Source: Desulfomonile tiedjei (lineage in GTDB: Bacteria; Desulfobacterota; Desulfomonilia; Desulfomonilales; Desulfomonilaceae). Taken from it: a stretch of DNA of 59,502 bases. A program made the position numbers and the translations under genes. Numbering within the stretch: the first letter of the stretch is position 1; each line of letters starts with the position of its first letter. Of this stretch, positions 21,069-32,044 are shown piece after piece. The stretch covers positions 1 through 59,502 of the forward strand of contig JACRDG010000097.1 in assembly GCA_016218715.1 (NCBI GenBank). Reading direction: 5' to 3'. The notes below the pieces were generated by a model. That model did no database searches, had not been told where the DNA came from, and worked only from the letters and a program-made list of their open reading frames with translations.

Positions 21069-21726
21069 CCGACGGTCTTCCGAGATGCCGGATCAGGACT
21101 TGACGGATCTGCTAGAAGAGGATGACAGGATCAACACATGGGGGCTTAGGCCCCAGTGTTTCCGGGTATAGGTGTTTTTTCAACACGATAACATATTGAT
21201 ATAATACTGAAGCCCGTTTTCTTCACCCATTACTGGGGGGTCAACCCCCATATTCTCTCCCCTCCTCTTCGCCGTCTCGCGACGGCCGACTCGCGGGGCT
21301 CAGCTATCATCTCGTTATCCCTAAGCTTTTTGCTCACCCTTCACCACGAGGCTGATGGCACGAATGTTGCTCCCGTTTCTACAGGGCGAAACTGTGCTTT
21401 GGGGATCCCTTGATGCTGCGGGAATCCTTCATTTCGGACACCGCAGAGCCTTGAGGCTTTGATTCGAGAGTCCCCCGGACTGGCGTGGTGAAACGGTCAG
21501 AGAATTGGGCAGCCGCTAAAATCTTGCGGCACGACAGCGTGGGTGCTCTCCTCGTCAGTCCTTCCAATGGCACAGGCCACACGTGACAGAAAACCATGCA
21601 GTCGATCGCGGGCGCTACGAAGGTCTCTTCGTTTTCTCTACGTGCCGATCCGGCAACTTCCCGAATCCTGGCCTCGTGTCGGCTGCTTTCGCCCACCCGA
21701 ACCTGACTGTCAGAGGAATTTGCGCA
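21069..21726. other. intergenic region with hairpins and a sigma-54 promoter
   Basis: About 660 bases. After the FGE-like gene come hairpins GGGGGCTTAGGCCCC (near 21140) and GGGGGTCAACCCCC (21235-21250), possible terminators. A TATAAT-like box is at about 21199. A consensus sigma-54 site lies at 21356-21371. The rest, up to the ankyrin gene, shows nothing I can name. Confidence 0.6.
21356..21371 (+). promoter_or_regulatory. sigma-54 (RpoN) promoter
   Basis: TGGCAC, five bases (GAATG), TTGCT: an exact match to the sigma-54 consensus, with GG and GC ten bases apart. It points to the ankyrin-repeat gene starting at 21727, leaving a 5' leader of about 345 bases. Activation by an NtrC-type enhancer-binding protein is expected; no such gene is in the window. 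Confidence 0.75.
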
Positions 21727-24333
21727 GTGCATCTCGTCAACGGAAAACTCGCCTCTTCGCTGTTTGAGGCCGCTCAGAAAGGGATCCCGGAAAAGCTTCG
21801 GTCTATTTTGGAATCGGGGGTGAATGTCGATCTCCGAGACCAACACGGCAGGACTGCCCTGATGCATGCTGCGCTCAAGGGCCAGGCCGAGGGGGCTCGG
21901 GTCCTGATCAGATTGGGCGCGGATCCGGACGTGGCGGGGAATGACGGCAGGACCGCCCTCATCCATGCTGCCTCGAAAGGGCACGAACCGCTTGTGGAAT
22001 TGCTTCTGCAGCACGGTGCGGACAGCCATGTCAAGGATAATGGCGGCCGGACTGCACTCATGGAGGCAGCGCTGTGGAATTGCGCAGGCGTGGTCGACCT
22101 GTTCCTTGAAAACCGGTTCGTCGTTTGTGCGCGGGATAACACGGGCAAGACCGCACTTATCGAATGTTCGTCCTGGGGGTACGCCTCCGCGGCGCAACTG
22201 CTCATTCAGGCTGGCGCGGACGTTGACGCCCAAGACAACCATGGGAACACGGCGCTCATCTGGGCTGCCGCTCGGGGTCACCTCCGCGTCGTTGAACTCC
22301 TCTTGAATGGCGGGGCAGAGATTGACGCCACAAACAACCGCGGGGAAACCGCGTTGATGAAAGCCTGTACAGAGGGACACGTCGCGGTAATCGAGCACTT
22401 GCTTTCACAGGGAGCTCGTCTTGCCCTCACGGACCATCTCGGCCACTCCGTTCTCATGCAGGCCGCGACTGTGGGCCAGACCGCGGTTGTCGAAAGGCTG
22501 ATCGCTTTCGGGGCCGAGATCGAGGGGCGAGGTTGCCATGGCGACACCCCCTTGATCGTTGCGTCTTATGCAGGTCACCTGCCCCTCGTGGAGCTGTTGC
22601 TGGCATCCGGAGCCGACCTGAACGCCGTGTCGGACTACGGTAACTCCGCGCTCATGAGGGCCGCGTACCGAGGGCATTATGAGATTGCCCTCCTCCTCCT
22701 CGAACGCGGAGCCGACCTAGCAGTCCGGAACAAGTACGGCAATTGCGCCCTCCTGGAGGCCTGCCTGGGAGGGAACACCGAGATCGTCAGGCAACTCCTC
22801 CATCGGGGTGCTGACGCTGAATCCGCGGATAACGAGGGAAGGACCGCTCTAATCTTCGCGAGCTTTTCTCGATTTCCCGCGATCGTTGAACTGCTCCTGG
22901 ACAGCGGCGCAAACGTCACGGCCAAGGACAAGAGCGGCAAGACCGCCTTGGGTTGGGCCCTCGTGGAATACGATCCTGAAGTAGTCGGCTTGCTGATGGC
23001 GCGTGAGCCGAGTCTCGATGAAGATGAGGAACAAACGAGTTTGACGCTCGTGGAAGCTTGCAAGAAAGGCCGTACCGAAGTGGTCAAGGTGCTTCTCGAT
23101 CGCGGGATCGGGACGGAATCGACTGACTCGGAGGGAGAGACGCCGTTGATCATAGCCGCGGCGTCAGGTCACCTGGAACTCCTGCAGCTTGCGCTGCGAC
23201 GCGGCGCGGCAGTCGACGCGGCGGACAATTCAGGAGACACCGCTCTCATGAAGGCCTCTTCCAGGGGCCATGCCCAACTGATCAAGCTGCTGCTGGACGC
23301 CGGTTCTCAGGTCAATGCGGCTAATCGCTATGGAAACACGGCTTTGATGAGGGCTGCTAACAAGGGACACACCGAAGTACTCACGATGTTGCTCGATGCA
23401 GGTGCCGAAATCAACAGGAGCAACCGGTACGGCAATGGAGCACTGTCGTTTGCCGCTTTCAAGGGTCACTTGGCCGCGGCCCAGTTGTTGATCGACAGGG
23501 GAGCGGATCTCCACTCGTCCGATATGTACGGAGAAAACCCGTTGATGAAGGCTGCCGTCGCCAATCACCCCGCCATGGTCAGAGCGTTACTGGAACGGGG
23601 AGCCGATCTCGATGCACAGAACATCCACGGCAACGGAGCCTTGATGGGGGCTGCCGCGAAAGGATATGCGGACGTGGTGAGGGTTCTACTGGAAAGCGGG
23701 GTGGACACGGGGACAGCCAACCGGCACGGGAACAGCGCCATGGCCAAGGCGTGTGCGAACGGTCATCTGGAAGTGACCGAGTTGCTTCTTGCCAGTGGGG
23801 CCTCCTTCAACGGTCACCAGCGGTTGAGAGACGTGACTCTCGTGCGAGCCTCGCGTGAAGGAAGACCGGGACTGTTGAAGATGATGTTGCCGGCCGATAC
23901 GGCGTACAATCTTGAGGTCGGAGTCCTGAACGCCGCCTTGATGGAAGCCTGCGGAGCCGGCCATATTGCGCTGGTCGAGTACCTCCTGGATCGCGGGGCT
24001 TCGGTCAATGCCCGCAACAAATCGGGCAAGACTGCACTCATGAAAGCGGGTGGCGCCGGCCATAGCGACGTGGTCAGGCTCCTCCTGAGGCAAGGGGCGG
24101 ACGTCAACTGTCGCACGCGACACGGGAACACCGCTTTAATGCGAGCCGCGTTCAGAGGCCACCAAGAGGTTGTGGAGATGCTCCTTCGTTCAGGAGCGGA
24201 CAAACGAGTGCAGAATGTTCATGGATATTCTGCTGCCAGACTGGCTCTGAAGTCAGGTCGTCGAGATCTTGCCAGGCTGTTGCTCGAGAGAGACCTGCGC
24301 GGCGAGGCCGCGGCAAATGCTCCGGCAGACTGA
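21727..24333 (+). CDS. large ankyrin-repeat protein (26 repeats)
   Basis: An 868-residue protein built almost entirely of about 26 ankyrin repeats of 33 residues (pattern G-TALM-AA--GH--VV-LLL--GAD). Repeats 13-14 and 22 are degenerate and may be hinge points. There is no signal peptide, membrane helix or added enzymatic domain, so it is a cytoplasmic solenoid for protein binding. I chose GTG 21727, which has AGAGGAA eight bases upstream and starts right before repeat 1. An in-frame GTG at 21583 would add 48 residues of unrelated sequence. The sensor kinase gene follows 63 bases later, so the two are probably co-transcribed from the sigma-54 promoter. Confidence 0.88.
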   Translation: MHLVNGKLASSLFEAAQKGIPEKLRSILESGVNVDLRDQHGRTALMHAALKGQAEGARVLIRLGADPDVAGNDGRTALIHAASKGHEPLVELLLQHGADSHVKDNGGRTALMEAALWNCAGVVDLFLENRFVVCARDNTGKTALIECSSWGYASAAQLLIQAGADVDAQDNHGNTALIWAAARGHLRVVELLLNGGAEIDATNNRGETALMKACTEGHVAVIEHLLSQGARLALTDHLGHSVLMQAATVGQTAVVERLIAFGAEIEGRGCHGDTPLIVASYAGHLPLVELLLASGADLNAVSDYGNSALMRAAYRGHYEIALLLLERGADLAVRNKYGNCALLEACLGGNTEIVRQLLHRGADAESADNEGRTALIFASFSRFPAIVELLLDSGANVTAKDKSGKTALGWALVEYDPEVVGLLMAREPSLDEDEEQTSLTLVEACKKGRTEVVKVLLDRGIGTESTDSEGETPLIIAAASGHLELLQLALRRGAAVDAADNSGDTALMKASSRGHAQLIKLLLDAGSQVNAANRYGNTALMRAANKGHTEVLTMLLDAGAEINRSNRYGNGALSFAAFKGHLAAAQLLIDRGADLHSSDMYGENPLMKAAVANHPAMVRALLERGADLDAQNIHGNGALMGAAAKGYADVVRVLLESGVDTGTANRHGNSAMAKACANGHLEVTELLLASGASFNGHQRLRDVTLVRASREGRPGLLKMMLPADTAYNLEVGVLNAALMEACGAGHIALVEYLLDRGASVNARNKSGKTALMKAGGAGHSDVVRLLLRQGADVNCRTRHGNTALMRAAFRGHQEVVEMLLRSGADKRVQNVHGYSAARLALKSGRRDLARLLLERDLRGEAAANAPAD

Positions 24334-26591: not shown

Positions 26592-27482
26592 CTAGTTCCG
26601 CCGGAAGGTTGCCCCTTCTCTAGTCACGAGCCCGCGCTCGGCCAATTCTTCAAGGTGAAGCTCGATCATCAGCCCTTCCCAGTATCGGAGCAGTTCGGGC
26701 GCGTACGGGTGGCGTCCGTAGATGGGCGCGGCATCGACAAGCTGGGTCAAGGAGACGCTGCCGTTCAGCAGGTTCAGGATCGTCCGGCTCCGGTCATCCA
26801 GGACGCGGGCGTACCGATCCAGGGCGTCGTCAATCCCGTCCTCGAGCACGTCCAAATGACTGGAAGCGAGCACCTTGGCGTCCAGAGCACGAACGAGGTC
26901 GATGGACCGTCTGAATTCCTTCAGGCTCGATTCACGGTGCCCGTACCACGGCCCGAAAGGGGTCAGGTCGATGTCGGAACTCAAGAGGATCTTCTGCTCG
27001 GCCTGGAAGAAGCAGTAGTGGTCCGCTGTATGGCCCGGAGTGTGAATCGCCTGAAGTTTGAGATGCCCGAAGTCGAACACGTGGCCGTGATCGTAGAATG
27101 AAGTCGGAACACGATCGCGAAATCCCATCGCATCAGAGACCCATCGGCGCCACCGATCCGCAAGCGGGCCGGCTTCGACGAGACGATGGGAGAGCGGCTC
27201 AAGCCTTCCATGACTGTTCGCGCCCTCTATCGGCGCATGAAGCGGGACGTCCGGAAAGAGCCAGTTCCCTGAAGAGTGGTCTGGATGGCCGTGGGAGTTG
27301 ATGATCAGATCCAGGCGATAGGATTCCCTGATCAGCTCCAGAATGTCGGGGCCGCACCCCGTATCGATAAGCGCGGTGGTGGTGTCCAGGACGAGAAACG
27401 AATGCGAGGAAGGGAACCTTCCCTGGTTGCGACCCACCACCTGAAACAAACGATCCGTGACTGGAACCAGCTTCAGCTCCAT
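26592..27482 (-). CDS. metallo-beta-lactamase-fold hydrolase
   Basis: A 296-residue protein of the MBL superfamily, glyoxalase II-like group. Metal-binding residues are visible: His-X-His-X-Asp-His in NSHGHPDHSSG, a His in HTPGHTADH, an Asp in LSSDIDL and a late His in ASSHLDV. The C-terminal third (about 215-296) is helical and resembles the winged-helix extension of the beta-lactamase-like 2 family. The substrate is unknown. It is convergent with the hybrid kinase and transcribed away from the NIL ferredoxin hairpin. Confidence 0.88.
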   Translation of the reverse strand: MELKLVPVTDRLFQVVGRNQGRFPSSHSFLVLDTTTALIDTGCGPDILELIRESYRLDLIINSHGHPDHSSGNWLFPDVPLHAPIEGANSHGRLEPLSHRLVEAGPLADRWRRWVSDAMGFRDRVPTSFYDHGHVFDFGHLKLQAIHTPGHTADHYCFFQAEQKILLSSDIDLTPFGPWYGHRESSLKEFRRSIDLVRALDAKVLASSHLDVLEDGIDDALDRYARVLDDRSRTILNLLNGSVSLTQLVDAAPIYGRHPYAPELLRYWEGLMIELHLEELAERGLVTREGATFRRN

Positions 27483-27609: not shown

Positions 27610-28065
27610 CTAATCGCCGGACTCGGCAGCAGTGCGGCCCTCCGCGAACGGATCGAACAGGGTAATATCTTTCATTGCGCCGAAGGGACAGACCAGACCG
27701 CACACGCCGCAGGCAACGCACTTGTCGACATCAAAGGACACCTTCAGCTCGGGACGAACGAGGCTCAAGGCCCCGGTCGGACACAGCCCGGTGCACGCGC
27801 CGCAATGGACGCAGTAATCTTCCTCTCTGCGTATCCGGTCCTTGAGCGGTTCGACCACCACCTGATGATCGCGAAGGAACTGTATCCCCTTTTCCATCAG
27901 TTCGTCGTCACCTCGAAGTTCCAGAATCAATCGGCCTTCCCGACGAGGCATGATCTTGGCTTCCAGGATGTTGAAGACCAGGTCGAAATCGCGAGCGAGC
28001 CGATAAATTACGGGCTTGTACATAATGCTCGATTTGAATATCAGCAGGACATTGCGTGAAGCCAT
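27610..28065 (-). CDS. NIL-domain 4Fe-4S ferredoxin, partner of the DUF39 protein
   Basis: A 151-residue protein: an N-terminal NIL domain (about 1-75, ligand-binding ACT-like fold also found in MetN), then two 4Fe-4S motifs, CVHCGACTGLCPTGAL and CVACGVCGLVCPFGAM. In methanogens the homologous DUF39 and NIL-ferredoxin pair is required for making homocysteine from aspartate semialdehyde and sulfide (Methanosarcina MA1821-MA1822). Here the two genes are adjacent in the same order. ATG 28065 has AAAGGTG five bases upstream; the longer frame to 28164 has no support. Confidence 0.92.
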   Translation of the reverse strand: MASRNVLLIFKSSIMYKPVIYRLARDFDLVFNILEAKIMPRREGRLILELRGDDELMEKGIQFLRDHQVVVEPLKDRIRREEDYCVHCGACTGLCPTGALSLVRPELKVSFDVDKCVACGVCGLVCPFGAMKDITLFDPFAEGRTAAESGD

Positions 28066-28197: not shown

Positions 28198-29400
28198 TCA
28201 ACTTTTCGCCAGGTTCGGGAATCCCGCGAAGGGCACCGACGGGAGCGTCTCCTGCGCCTCTCCCAACAGGAACTGGCCTGACTGAATCCACTCCTTCAAG
28301 ATCGTCGCGATCTCCAGCGCCGCGGAATAGCTGGACAAAGGCGCCGTGACCACCTCGCGGCCGTCAAAGGTTATCGTGCCGCTCTTGAGCTGGGCGTAGG
28401 TGACGTACGCCAGAGGCCCTCCGGCCATGTTCGGGTAATCGTTCCCATAATCTACCACGGGAACCGAAATCTCCGCATCCGATACCGCGGTGAACTGGGC
28501 CATCTCCTCGTTCAGGATCGGGATCGGTATGCCGATCCCCACGTTCAACGAGCACCCGTATCCGGTGAGTGAAGCGCCCCTGAGAAATCGTGATGACATG
28601 CCCTTGAGGTCGCCTTTGACCGCGAGGGTGCCGGCCCCTCCCATCACCACCCCGTTTTCGGAACGTCTCACACCTGGATTGTGTTGCGTCCCCGCGCCAA
28701 TAACGTATCCGACACCTCCGCCGAGGAAGATGCGCGTCCCCATGCCGATGGTCTTGTACAGAGGATCGTTGAGCAGCGGACTCAACTGCCCGGCCGTGGA
28801 GAAGTTCGCGTTCGAGCACTCTGGTCTGATCATCCCCATGTAGGTGTAGATGGTCTTCTTGGAGAAGTTTACCGCGCAATTGTAGTTCTGGTACGCGTTC
28901 CTCGGATTGAGCAAGACCGCGTCGGGGAAGTCCTTGAGAGTCATGGTTCGCTCGTAGGATCGCCGCGGGTAGCAGTCCGTCCCGTACGAGATCGCCTGCA
29001 ATTGGACCTCACGGCCCGCGACGAGATCCTCGATGACATGCCCTCCACCGTAGCGGAATCTGCCCGGAAATACCTTGTTCAGTGGGTCGTCTTCCTTCAC
29101 CTGAGTGGCCCCGATGTAAACGTCCACCGCGGCGAGCCCTGCGTAAGCTTCCACACCGTTGAGGTACACCTTCTGCGCTTTCATCCGCGGATTGGAGTGA
29201 CCGAAATTGAGAAACGCGCCGGATGAACACATGATTCCAAACGTCCCGGTCGTGACCACGTCGATCTTGCGGGCCGCCTCCACTGCGCCGTGCTCTCTGG
29301 TAATATCGATCATCTCTTCAGCAGTCACCACTACTGCACGGCCTTGCTTGATCTTCTCATTGATTTCCGCGAACGTCTTGTTCACCTGAAATTCCGCCAT
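28198..29400 (-). CDS. DUF39 homocysteine biosynthesis protein (aspartate semialdehyde sulfurtransferase type)
   Basis: A 400-residue member of the DUF39/HcyBio family, recognised from TFGIMCSSGAFLNFGHSNP, GGGHVIEDLVAGREV, ARNSYERT-like RRSYERTMTLKD, LNPRNAYQNYNCA, and GMGTRIFLGGGVGYV. With the adjacent NIL ferredoxin it is expected to insert sulfide-derived sulfur into aspartate semialdehyde to form homocysteine, the precursor of methionine and SAM. AAGGAGG precedes ATG 29400 with five-base spacing. Its long leader carries a SAM-II-like riboswitch and terminator, an independent sign that it belongs to methionine metabolism. Confidence 0.93.
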   Translation of the reverse strand: MAEFQVNKTFAEINEKIKQGRAVVVTAEEMIDITREHGAVEAARKIDVVTTGTFGIMCSSGAFLNFGHSNPRMKAQKVYLNGVEAYAGLAAVDVYIGATQVKEDDPLNKVFPGRFRYGGGHVIEDLVAGREVQLQAISYGTDCYPRRSYERTMTLKDFPDAVLLNPRNAYQNYNCAVNFSKKTIYTYMGMIRPECSNANFSTAGQLSPLLNDPLYKTIGMGTRIFLGGGVGYVIGAGTQHNPGVRRSENGVVMGGAGTLAVKGDLKGMSSRFLRGASLTGYGCSLNVGIGIPIPILNEEMAQFTAVSDAEISVPVVDYGNDYPNMAGGPLAYVTYAQLKSGTITFDGREVVTAPLSSYSAALEIATILKEWIQSGQFLLGEAQETLPSVPFAGFPNLAKS

Positions 29401-29640
29401 CGTTTCCTCCTTGGGGCGTTTGTTCGGTCAATTCCCGGGGTAGCCCGGCATCATGTTGACAAGAACAGTCAAGATCATCAGCCGACCATCCCCTTTTCCT
29501 CGCTCGTCTTACCCACTTTGGGTCTCATCGATCATTCAACCGTGATGAAGATCGATCTCTGCCGTCTCGTGCCGGACGGGCCACGGCAAACCGGGACGCA
29601 CTGTTTCAAAACACCCTACGACGCTTCGTCGCAGAGCTCC

Positions 29641-29656
29641 CTTGACCTGGGTCAAG
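29641..29656. promoter_or_regulatory. TTGACC-N2-GGTCAA dyad, possible CRP/FNR-family site
   Basis: CTTGACC, TG, GGTCAAG: a near-perfect palindrome resembling binding sites of CRP/FNR-family regulators. It lies just beyond the attenuator T-tract, 240 bases before the DUF39 start codon. No regulator gene is nearby, so this is only a candidate. Confidence 0.4.
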
Positions 29657-29659
29657 AGC

Positions 29660-29690
29660 AAAAAAAAACCGTCGCAGCTAAGCTCGACGG
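29660..29690 (-). terminator. intrinsic terminator of the SAM-II riboswitch leader
   Basis: Transcribed strand: CCGTCGAGC, TTA, GCTGCGACGG (29690-29669) with a bulged G, then nine T residues (29668-29660). The strand TTAGCTGC (29681-29674) inside it is complementary to GCAGCTAA (29717-29710) of the upstream aptamer, giving an antiterminator when SAM is absent. Confidence 0.9.
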
Positions 29691-29700
29691 GTTCAATCGA

Positions 29701-29757
29701 TCCCACGCTTTAGCTGCATTTCTTACGCGCCCGCAAGCTGTGTGCTCAAATCGGCGC
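29701..29757 (-). ncRNA. SAM-II (metA/SAM-alpha) riboswitch aptamer
   Basis: The transcribed strand carries the SAM-II core in order: GCGCC, GATTTGAG, CAGCTTGCG, GGCGC, GTAAGAAATGCAGCTAAAG. P1 is GCGCC/GGCGC (29757-29753 with 29731-29727). The invariant GATTTG loop, the CTTGC segment and the 3' GCTAAA pseudoknot strand match the SAM-II family as I know it. Pairing AGCT(T)GC with GCAGCT would form the P2 pseudoknot. SAM binding would sequester GCAGCTAA and allow the downstream terminator to form, switching off homocysteine synthesis. The family is mainly known from alphaproteobacteria, upstream of metA, metX or metC. Confidence 0.85.
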
Positions 29758-29831
29758 TTCTTTCTATGAACTCATATAGCTGCGTTCTTGTCAAGAAAAA
29801 AAGTCGTCGTCGCAAGCATTCAGTTCGGCGC

Positions 29832-29926
29832 GGGCAAAATCCCCCTGCCCCCTGTTAGAAAAGGGAGGTGAAAGGGAAATGCAAAATTCCCTATCAGCAA
29901 GGGGGGGGTTAGGGCCGATTTTGCCC
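29832..29926. repeat. MITE-like palindromic repeat
   Basis: About 95 bases with inverted ends: GGGCAAAATCCCCCTGCCCCC on the left and GGGGGGTTAGGGCCGATTTTGCCC on the right (24 bases, read as the two complementary arms with a short mismatch). It lies 18 bases after the stop of the next minus-strand kinase gene. CCCCCTAACCCCC-type elements of this kind are common in many bacterial genomes. Confidence 0.65.
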
Positions 29927-29944
29927 TGGACATGAAAACCTCTC

Positions 29945-32044
29945 TCACGCTCCCAGGCGACGGATCACGTCGAGGAGTTGCGACAGGTCGAGCGGCTTCT
30001 CCACGACTGCGTCGACGCCCGATCCCGACGTCCGTCCCTCCGCGCGCTCTCCGTCCCCAACTCCTACGGTCAACACGAACGGCGTCTTCGGAATGCCGAG
30101 GGATTCGCAGCGCGCCTTGATCCTGCCGGACATTTCCCAACCACCTAATCCCGGCAGCCCGTAGTCGCACACAATCATGTCCGGAGGGTGGCTCTCAAAC
30201 AGTTCGAGCCCTTCCGGACCGGAGAGTGCGGTCATCACCGTGTGGCCTGCTTTGGCGAGTTCGCGCCTGAGAAGTTTCAGCAGAGGCTGCCCGCGGTCCA
30301 TGACCAGAATGTTGAGCTTGCGATCCGGGGTGCGCGTGGCCTCTTTCCGACCCATGGGGAGCCATACCGTGAAGAGCGTGCCCTGCTCACTGGATTTCAC
30401 GGAAATGGACCCCCTGTGATCCTCGATGATTTTCTTCGAGAGCGTGAGGCCCAGGCCGGTCCCATAGCTCTTGGTGGTGTAAAACGGGTTGAAGATCTTC
30501 TCAAGTTCCTCGCTCGATATGGGCTCTCCCCGGTTCTGGATTTTAAGCTGAAAGTAGGCTTCCGACGTCAGGTCCGCGGATTCCCTCACCGCGTCGCTCG
30601 GCAGAGAGATTCGAGTTTCCACGATGACGACCTCTCGCACCGGGGAGGCCTCGATCGCGTTGGCAACGAGATTGCGCACTACATGCCCGAAGAGGTCAGG
30701 GTCGAGCAGGATCTCGCCCACTGCTGGATCGAGATCCAGTGCGATGAGAAGCTCCTTTTCTTGTGTTCGCGGGGCATTGACGCGCACTACCTCTTCGATG
30801 AGCGCGTTTGGATTGACACACTGGAGCCCGATACTTTCGCGCCGGCTAAACTCGATGAGCCCCCCCAGGATTCTCTCCAGTCGTTCCACTTCACTTGCGA
30901 TGAGGGCAAATTCGTCCTGGGCTCCCGGATCGCTCGCACCACCAGTCCCGAGCCGTCGAGCGAGTCTGCGAGCAAATCCGCCGATGATCGCAAGAGGCTG
31001 GCGTAGCTCGTGCGCCACCTCAGCCGTGTGCTCGGCTATCACCTTGGCCTTGGTCGATTGAAGCACGTGTTCGTACAGCTGATCGATCGTACTGATCTTT
31101 TCTTTGAGGAGTTCGTTCGCTTCCCGGAGTTCACCGGTTCGCTCGCGGACCCGAGTCTCCAGTTCGTCCCGGGCTTTCCGGAGTTCCTCTTCTGCGGTCT
31201 TTCGGTCGGTGATATCCCGTGCCACGTGGACACTGCCAGTCAGCCTCCCGCGCTCGTCATAGACCGGCGAGGCCGTCACCATGAAGGTTCCGCCCATTCG
31301 CGGCTCGAATATCTCCACGGCATGTTCTTCCCCATCTTCCAGGAGTCGGCCGAGGGGGCAGAAAGGAGGCGGCTCGTCTCGTCCATGGACGAGTTCGTAG
31401 CAGTGCTTTCCGATGGCATCTCTGATATCCACGCCGAGTCTGGCAGCCATCGTCTTGTTCATCCGGACGACCCGGAAGTCTTCGTCCAATATGGCCACCA
31501 AATCAGGGACCGCATCAAATGCGTATTCCCATTCTCTCTTGGCCCGTTCTATGGACCGTTGAATCCGTTTGTCCTCCGTAATGTCCCGTAAGGTCAGCAG
31601 TAAGTACTCGGACGCGTCGGTTTCCCCAGGGACTCTGTTCCCGGACACAGCCGCGCTGAACTGGGCGCCTTCCTTCCTGACCAATTCCAATTCCTGCCCG
31701 ACGATCGGCTCACTGAACGTCAGCCGCCGGAACTGCTCTTGGAAAGCGCTCTTGGAGCCGGGGGTTACGAAGTTGAGGAAAGAGGTGCCGATGACTTCTT
31801 CCCGTGCGTATCCGAAAAGCCTGAGCCACTCCCTGCTCACTGCCACTAAACGCGCCTGGTCATCCAGGAGTTGATAACTTACCGGAGCATCTTCGCAGAA
31901 GAGCACAAATGCTTTCCTGGCCTCTTCAAGCGCGCTCAGGGTCTCCGCACCCTGGCCCAGGGATCCTTGCAACCCGAAGAGGCCTCTATGAAGCTCAGCC
32001 GCTGCTTCACCGGTCTTCGGTCTAGGCTGATTCGGCTCTTTCAT
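29945..32044 (-). CDS. PAS hybrid histidine kinase with atypical receiver
   Basis: A 699-residue soluble kinase. Two PAS domains (about 40-160 and 165-285) precede a coiled coil (RKARDELETRVRERTGELRE). HisKA has the phosphoacceptor in AEVAHELRQPLAI. HATPase_c has the N box NLVANAIEAS and the YGTGLGLTLSKKI lid. A C-terminal receiver has the phospho-Asp in MIVCDYGLPG and Lys in EKPLD. The receiver's usual Asp-Asp pair is changed to Asp-Arg (ILVMDRGQP), so Mg2+ binding may be weakened. AAGGAC precedes ATG 32044. It is divergent from the small Cys-containing gene at 32444. Confidence 0.92.
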   Translation of the reverse strand: MKEPNQPRPKTGEAAAELHRGLFGLQGSLGQGAETLSALEEARKAFVLFCEDAPVSYQLLDDQARLVAVSREWLRLFGYAREEVIGTSFLNFVTPGSKSAFQEQFRRLTFSEPIVGQELELVRKEGAQFSAAVSGNRVPGETDASEYLLLTLRDITEDKRIQRSIERAKREWEYAFDAVPDLVAILDEDFRVVRMNKTMAARLGVDIRDAIGKHCYELVHGRDEPPPFCPLGRLLEDGEEHAVEIFEPRMGGTFMVTASPVYDERGRLTGSVHVARDITDRKTAEEELRKARDELETRVRERTGELREANELLKEKISTIDQLYEHVLQSTKAKVIAEHTAEVAHELRQPLAIIGGFARRLARRLGTGGASDPGAQDEFALIASEVERLERILGGLIEFSRRESIGLQCVNPNALIEEVVRVNAPRTQEKELLIALDLDPAVGEILLDPDLFGHVVRNLVANAIEASPVREVVIVETRISLPSDAVRESADLTSEAYFQLKIQNRGEPISSEELEKIFNPFYTTKSYGTGLGLTLSKKIIEDHRGSISVKSSEQGTLFTVWLPMGRKEATRTPDRKLNILVMDRGQPLLKLLRRELAKAGHTVMTALSGPEGLELFESHPPDMIVCDYGLPGLGGWEMSGRIKARCESLGIPKTPFVLTVGVGDGERAEGRTSGSGVDAVVEKPLDLSQLLDVIRRLGA

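Follow-up and report, generated by a model that had tools for sequence, protein, structure and literature searches.

Organization of the DUF39 locus

The window, that is, the whole 59,502-nt stretch of Desulfomonile tiedjei DNA analyzed here, carries on its minus strand a DUF39 (HcyBio) homocysteine synthesis gene of 400 aa (28198-29400), which has AAGGAGG before its ATG and was recognized by PF01837 at 521.8 bits. PF01837 gave no other match in the genome, so that DUF39 is present as a single copy. Downstream on the same strand lies a gene for a protein with a NIL domain and a 4Fe-4S ferredoxin (27610-28065; PF09383 and Fer4 models), the start of which was re-read at an internal ATG. In 12 of 80 related loci a relative of this gene follows DUF39 on the same strand at a distance of 69-1141 nt; the gene is the probable partner of DUF39. 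The next gene on the strand (26592-27482; PF00753) codes for a metallo-beta-lactamase-fold protein, a relative of which was found in 0 of the 80 related DUF39 loci within the available flanks; it is only a candidate member of the DUF39 operon. The upstream neighbor is a PAS/histidine kinase/receiver gene, also on the minus strand, whose ORF (29945-32044) ends at 29945 according to the ORF list and domain models. The nearest DUF39 records, at 80 and 81% identity, were labelled Desulfomonilaceae and Deltaproteobacteria. On the plus strand at 21583-24333 a 916-aa protein with a long ankyrin-repeat array was noted by eye.

The MetB/MetC/MetY/MetZ family gave ten partial, weak matches in the genome, the best of which scored 32.9 bits and covered 134 of the 381 positions, and two of them were just over the cut-off of 27. 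Full-length enzymes of this family score far higher. Because the genome has one DUF39 gene and only such partial matches, homocysteine is likely made through DUF39, and likely by no other route. DUF39, the NIL/ferredoxin protein and COG2122 are needed for homocysteine synthesis in Desulfovibrio, as determined by genetics in the accessible part of PMC5764234. The initial annotation had proposed that a SAM riboswitch at this site would be independent evidence for a part of DUF39 in methionine synthesis; this would not be new, the role being already known from that work. With that role, the region described below is the 5' leader of a methionine gene, the usual position of SAM-II.

Identification of the SAM-II aptamer

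When the sequence was read directly, minus-strand positions 29757-29704 had the appearance of a SAM-II aptamer, followed at 29690-29660 by a terminator with a T9 tract, and the coordinates and strand given for the core in the initial annotation were right. From 29757 the minus strand runs GCGCC-GATTTG-AGCACACA-GCTTGC-G-GGCGC-GTAAGAAATGCA-GCTAAAGCGTG, then, after 13 nt, CCGTCG-AGCTTAGCTG-CGACGG-T9, ending at 29660. The P1 stem is formed by GCGCC (29753-29757; direct reading, RF00521 and the leave-one-out model described below) and GGCGC (29727-29731; direct reading and the leave-one-out model). It encloses the conserved GATTTG of loop 1 (29747-29752; direct reading and alignments), which by analogy with known structures we take to be the third strand of the ligand triplex, and the CTTGC core block (29737-29733); the GCTAAA block lies at 29714-29709. 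The 5' strand of the pseudoknot P2 (29733-29742) consists of CAC (29742-29740) followed by GCTTGC (29738-29733), and its 3' strand is GCTAAAGCGTG (29704-29714), so that P2 joins the loop of P1 to the strand after GCTAAA. There is one copy of the aptamer in the window, compared with tandem copies in some relatives.

The Rfam SAM-II model (RF00521, gathering score 36) gave no match in a default scan of the window. In a permissive scan of 561 nt it matched 29692-29767 over all 79 model positions at 30.6 bits (E 4.9e-5), under the gathering score, and over the 5.55-Mb genome the same element was its sole match at E <= 0.001 (E 1.1e-4). RF00521 scores of 28-33 bits are not safe alone as proof. Among 148 relatives the model matched in four genomes, one match being judged false (33.4 bits, inside a def gene of G067, record L003); among 395 genomes of the phylum it matched in seven, of which three were judged false, namely G067 again and, by eye, G386 (L090) and G263 (L091). 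Since the def-gene match outranks the 30.6 bits of the window, the Rfam score by itself was rejected as proof.

Because Rfam scores in this range can mislead, a leave-one-out model (R2) was built from better copies, nine in all, from G017, G004, G214, G407 and G299, with nothing from the genome of the window; one of them (G017a) clears the Rfam cut-off by itself at 40.4 bits. With filters off, R2 matched the window at 29697-29762 on the minus strand with 61.3 bits (E 1.9e-17; next match 9.6 bits). Over the whole genome the score was 61.3 bits (E 1.8e-15) and that of the runner-up 11.6 bits; the E-values of such home-made covariance models are rough and the gap to the runner-up is wide, and R2 is not fully independent of the window, its nine sequences including copies from the same family. 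The search with the Rfam model that the initial annotation had proposed as a check came out below threshold with an empty default scan. The lack of a covariance-model hit, which the initial annotation had named as a refutation, thus formally occurred at the Rfam cut-off, and the better-suited nine-copy model overturned that result.

SAM-I (RF00162) had no match in the window at gathering level nor in the genome at E <= 0.001, and no SAM-V match was listed in the permissive Rfam scan. SAM-V, including SAM-II/SAM-V tandems, is closely similar in core fold and SAM site, at least in the part of PMC6061858 that was available, and acts on translation, whereas the element in the window has a terminator after it. 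The presence of a SAM-II aptamer with a terminator upstream of DUF39 was confirmed.

Pairing of P1 was kept despite letter changes in alignments inspected by eye, one C-G pair being replaced by T-A in G004 and a G-C pair by T-A in G214b and G299. In P2 of the window CAC pairs with GUG (29706-29704) and GCUU with AAGC, all three cells of the fixed register being paired; the three-pair part is GGC/GCC in G313 and GAC/GUC in G214b. In ten sequences 25 of 30 cells were paired in this register (P2b) against a shuffle mean of 19.9 (p 0.005), and sliding the register left 8 to 14 cells paired. Free-register duplex energies with swapped partners gave no significant P2 covariation (p 0.22). The redundant rows G407a, G407b and G313b were excluded from both counts. 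The fixed register was picked post hoc, after the sequences had been seen and the freer test had failed, and for that reason its result is taken as support and not as proof.

Upstream of the aptamer a possible -35 box, TTGACA (29789-29794, minus strand), was noted by eye, with a poor -10 region, GTTCAT (29771-29766), at 17-nt spacing. A promoter ahead of the aptamer is only suggested by these motifs, and a consensus scan of 29380-29960 found no promoter site, neither before the aptamer nor in the gap preceding DUF39. Known SAM-II elements, many of which have terminators, usually have a promoter just before P1 (PMC1273637, as far as its accessible text goes); in the window only the -35 box is good.

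Terminator and antiterminator

The terminator hairpin (29669-29690, minus strand; direct reading and folding) pairs CCGTCG (29690-29685) with CGACGG (29674-29669) around a 10-nt loop and is followed by the T9 tract (29660-29668). It was not listed by the terminator scan; its loop exceeds the limit of 8 nt of that scan. The antiterminator consists of a 5' strand, GCAGCTAA (29717-29710), and an exactly complementary 3' strand, TTAGCTGC (29681-29674), which occupies the loop and inner edge of the terminator, with 28 bases between them; both strands lie on the minus strand and were defined by direct reading, folding and shuffle tests. This complement and the T9 terminator had been reported in the initial annotation and withstood direct reading, the complement also shuffling. 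The shuffle probability of an 8-nt complement of a 12-nt strand within the next 60 nt was 0.005. With bulges allowed, the pseudoknot strand paired with the terminator region at -16.0 kcal/mol; shuffles averaged -7.1 kcal/mol, and 0 of 400 were as good.

The same pairing test was applied to six other SAM-II leaders. The fraction of shuffles as good was 0.015 in G017a, 0.035 in G004, 0.0025 in G214a, 0 in G503, 0.005 in G012 and 0.08 in G501; five of the six were thus better than at least 96% of shuffles, and G501 is the weak case. The letters of the antiterminator strand vary between lineages while its complementarity to the terminator stays, which is the pattern expected of a terminator/antiterminator switch.

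Folding gave -36.8 kcal/mol for P1 with the antiterminator and -31.7 kcal/mol for P1 with the terminator, and when the P2 strands were held away to mimic the SAM-bound form, the best fold was the terminator. The folding energy of the whole leader was unremarkable (z -0.86) and gave no support. The 8-bp helix overlaps the terminator stem by one base (C29674), plus its loop, and exclusion of the terminator would require the longer antiterminator seen in the predicted fold. Of the complete on/off mechanism proposed in the initial annotation, the terminator switch is accordingly supported and the sufficiency of the 8-bp helix is not. The platform, a terminator with an antiterminator, is of the kind usual for SAM-II (terminator control in the accessible parts of PMC1273637 and PMC9373788).

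SAM-II elsewhere in the phylum

In the 18 genomes of the family of the window four had a match, one of them degenerate. G004 has a single copy and G017 a tandem of two, one of which exceeds the Rfam cut-off with 40.4 bits. Elsewhere in the phylum copies were found in G214, G407, G299 and G313. Our own model R1 matched in six of 395 genomes of the phylum; in the six genomes found by our own model, RF00521 passes its cut-off in one, stays below it in three and finds nothing in two. R2 matched in five of 136 genomes of the order of G214.

Several of these copies have distinctive arrangements. In G313 a SAM-I aptamer is followed directly by SAM-II at two sites, L096:4512-4750 on the plus strand (63.2 and 37.9 bits) and L095:7335-7098 on the minus strand (54.2 and 38.6 bits), with all four scores above the Rfam cut-offs. 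Both pairs precede a protein of about 300 aa (one copy was checked and had no Pfam match), and SAM synthetase (metK) follows in one of the two. Tandem SAM-II pairs occur at L097:5405-5219 (-), L110:3881-4068 (+) and L098:3248-2944 (-), the first copy having a terminator and the second lying near the start of a small or uncharacterized gene. The gene behind the tandem codes for 58 aa in G214, and in G017 for a protein 80% identical to a 185-aa protein of G004 that has no Pfam match. The available part of PMC9481103 already describes SAM-II in tandem as well as combined with SAM-I/IV; such tandem or mixed leaders are seen in the relatives G017, G214, G407 and G313, and the window has a single copy.

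In G503 (L122:1565-531, minus strand) SAM-II and a terminator precede a methionine sulfoxide reductase (PF01625, 140.8 bits). Its reading frame has a UGA codon in place of the catalytic residue of GCFWG, which we take to be the catalytic motif of MsrA; the reductase is likely a selenoprotein MsrA. In G501 (L123:1565-396, minus strand) SAM-II and a terminator precede a zinc-type dehydrogenase (PF08240/PF00107), presumably a threonine 3-dehydrogenase, and the next ORF looks to us like a 2-amino-3-ketobutyrate ligase. In G299 (L104:1566-420) a SAM-II variant lies directly before a protein of about 343 aa with no Pfam match. GAGTTA replaces GATTTG, near the ligand site, at L097:5283-5219, L110:4004-4068 and L111:3795-3860, and on the letters the ligand of these copies might be different. 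The degenerate copy in G012 (L113, same family as the window; 34.1 bits) has a hairpin that keeps CTAGCTG at its loop edge, followed by a tRNA with no evident protein gene, and is either a remnant or a stand-alone RNA.

Leaders of other DUF39 genes

The DUF39 comparison set was the best 80 of 557 candidate loci; in 78 of these 80 the sequence ahead of the DUF39 match is longer than 400 nt. No credible SAM-II was found in the 80 loci with default filters, the best chance-level matches being 12.2 bits (L036) and 10.6 bits (L027). The closest DUF39 relatives (L005, L006 and L007) had no Rfam match at gathering level. Among the SAM-II genomes whose downstream genes were read, the pairing of SAM-II with DUF39 occurs in one genome only.

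SAM-I was found upstream of DUF39 on the same strand in 6 of the 80 loci (L017, L037, L046, L053, L058 and L081) in a gathering-level Rfam scan, with scores of 81 to 97 bits and at distances of 97 to 391 nt from the DUF39 match. By eye, CTTATC in the terminator is the complement of the closing GATAAG of the SAM-I aptamer in five of the six, and in L081, a record labelled Desulfotomaculum, the terminator has ACCTCTT against AAGAGGT at the end of the aptamer. Between the SAM-I terminator and DUF39, L017, L037, L046, L053 and L058 have an ORF of 40-55 aa with a good ribosome site; the five begin alike (MDRESDM..., ...NIHPP), and the ORF is absent in L081 and in the window. SAM-I was found in 0 of the 18 genomes of the family of the window.

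These SAM-I (S-box) leaders resemble that of the window in target gene and ligand class and differ in having an unrelated aptamer fold. SAM feedback on DUF39 is thereby seen independently. With SAM-I in six loci and SAM-II without SAM-I here, it seems that two aptamer classes, unrelated to each other, serve for SAM feedback on DUF39.

Discussion

With the identity of the aptamer, the terminator, the mutually exclusive pairing and the gene order established by computation, the DUF39 leader very probably contains a SAM-II riboswitch acting as an OFF switch at the level of transcription. At low SAM the strand GCAGCUAAAGC downstream of P1 would pair with the terminator region as an antiterminator, and RNA polymerase, starting at the putative promoter ahead of the aptamer, would read through into DUF39, and probably also into the NIL-ferredoxin gene, allowing homocysteine, methionine and SAM to be made. 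At high SAM, bound SAM would keep GCAGCUAAAGC in the pseudoknot P2, the terminator CCGUCG/CGACGG-U9 would form, and transcription in the cell would end about 260 nt before DUF39. The points against such a switch are the Rfam score below the gathering threshold, the pairing of SAM-II with DUF39 in a single genome, a gap of 259 nt before the gene, the lack of a good -10 box and of a promoter site in the scan, the non-significant free-register test of P2 with the post hoc choice of the fixed register, the unremarkable folding energy of the whole leader and the incomplete independence of R2 from the window.

DUF39 is the next gene on the strand of the aptamer, with its start 259 nt after the T tract. 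This long distance from terminator to start codon would suit a true SAM-II riboswitch that mainly yields a short terminated RNA, DUF39 having a separate promoter of its own within the gap; SAM-II leaders of S. meliloti release stable small RNAs, according to the accessible part of PMC9373788, and the degenerate copy in G012 has no evident protein gene behind it. The consensus scan returned no promoter site in the gap, though none before the aptamer either. The minus-strand ORFs in the gap (24, 25 and 56 aa) have no convincing ribosome site, and a small protein gene there was rejected on that ground. The six SAM-I/DUF39 leaders likewise leave 97-391 nt before the DUF39 match, a space that holds a short ORF in five of the six. 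Separate transcription of DUF39 from the gap is on this evidence unlikely.

A SAM-II-like fold whose ligand binding has changed or been lost, as in a decayed or repurposed aptamer, would agree with the sub-threshold Rfam score and with the variant GAGTTA cores of G214 and G407 in the same phylum. Decay should hit both core and expression platform, and in the window GATTTG, CTTGC and GCTAAA are intact, as is the platform; we regard such a loss as improbable. Still less probable is that the hairpin merely ends transcription of the upstream histidine kinase gene and is unrelated to DUF39 control: it does follow the kinase gene on the same strand, but at about 255 nt from the kinase stop codon and immediately behind the aptamer, and it is complementary to an aptamer strand beyond 400 of 400 shuffles. 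Chance resemblance to SAM-II, which the false 33.4-bit RF00521 match in another genome might bring to mind, has a negligible probability and is refuted as far as computation can go, the leave-one-out E-value in the genome being 1.8e-15 and the false match lying in coding sequence.

The switch in the DUF39 leader thus belongs to a known class. It shares with the RF00521 exemplars, A. tumefaciens metA and S. meliloti metZ, the P1 stem and pseudoknot, the GATTTG/CTTGC/GCTAAA core, the terminator platform and a target in methionine synthesis, as far as the accessible sources describe them. The exemplars are alphaproteobacterial and control metA, metX, metY, metZ or metC, whereas the window is from Desulfobacterota, its aptamer is divergent enough to fall below the Rfam cut-off, and the target is DUF39. 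In the available text of PMC1273637 SAM-II is described from alphaproteobacteria with a few cases in other proteobacteria and Bacteroides. A survey of proteobacterial genomes, about 200 in number and including Desulfovibrionales and Desulfuromonadales, recorded SAM_alpha in no orders other than Rhizobiales and Rhodobacterales, where its targets were metY, metA, metX, metC, hom and metW (accessible part of PMC4239095). For Oleidesulfovibrio alaskensis one SAM-I riboswitch is listed, ahead of a gene annotated as hypothetical (PMC11124144, in the portion available). No SAM-II or SAM-I leader of DUF39 was found in the open literature, subscription papers and Rfam/RegPrecise records being outside the scope of the search. 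The class is little recorded in the phylum, and both the phylum and the target DUF39 seem new for SAM-II as far as we looked. The new regulon member announced in the initial annotation lies outside the SAM-II regulons in the accessible published text and is on the same strand downstream of the aptamer, and it is known from one genome; that interpretation was on the whole partly supported, being right in part and in part overstated.

Taken jointly, the data make it probable that the DUF39 route is under SAM feedback by SAM-I in several lineages and by SAM-II here, through the same device of an aptamer strand complementary to the terminator. On that reading, SAM-II in the phylum would form a small, unrecognized and partly divergent branch, often below the Rfam cut-off, and its own regulon would comprise DUF39, an operon with metK, genes for a methionine sulfoxide reductase and a dehydrogenase, and several uncharacterized genes. 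If this is true, the homoserine-free DUF39 pathway would be under a defined, testable SAM signal. The findings suggest that control of this one gene has fallen to either of two unrelated SAM aptamers, depending on the lineage, indicate that SAM-II extends beyond the alphaproteobacteria in a form that the Rfam cut-off tends to miss, and provide leads for the uncharacterized genes located behind SAM-II copies.
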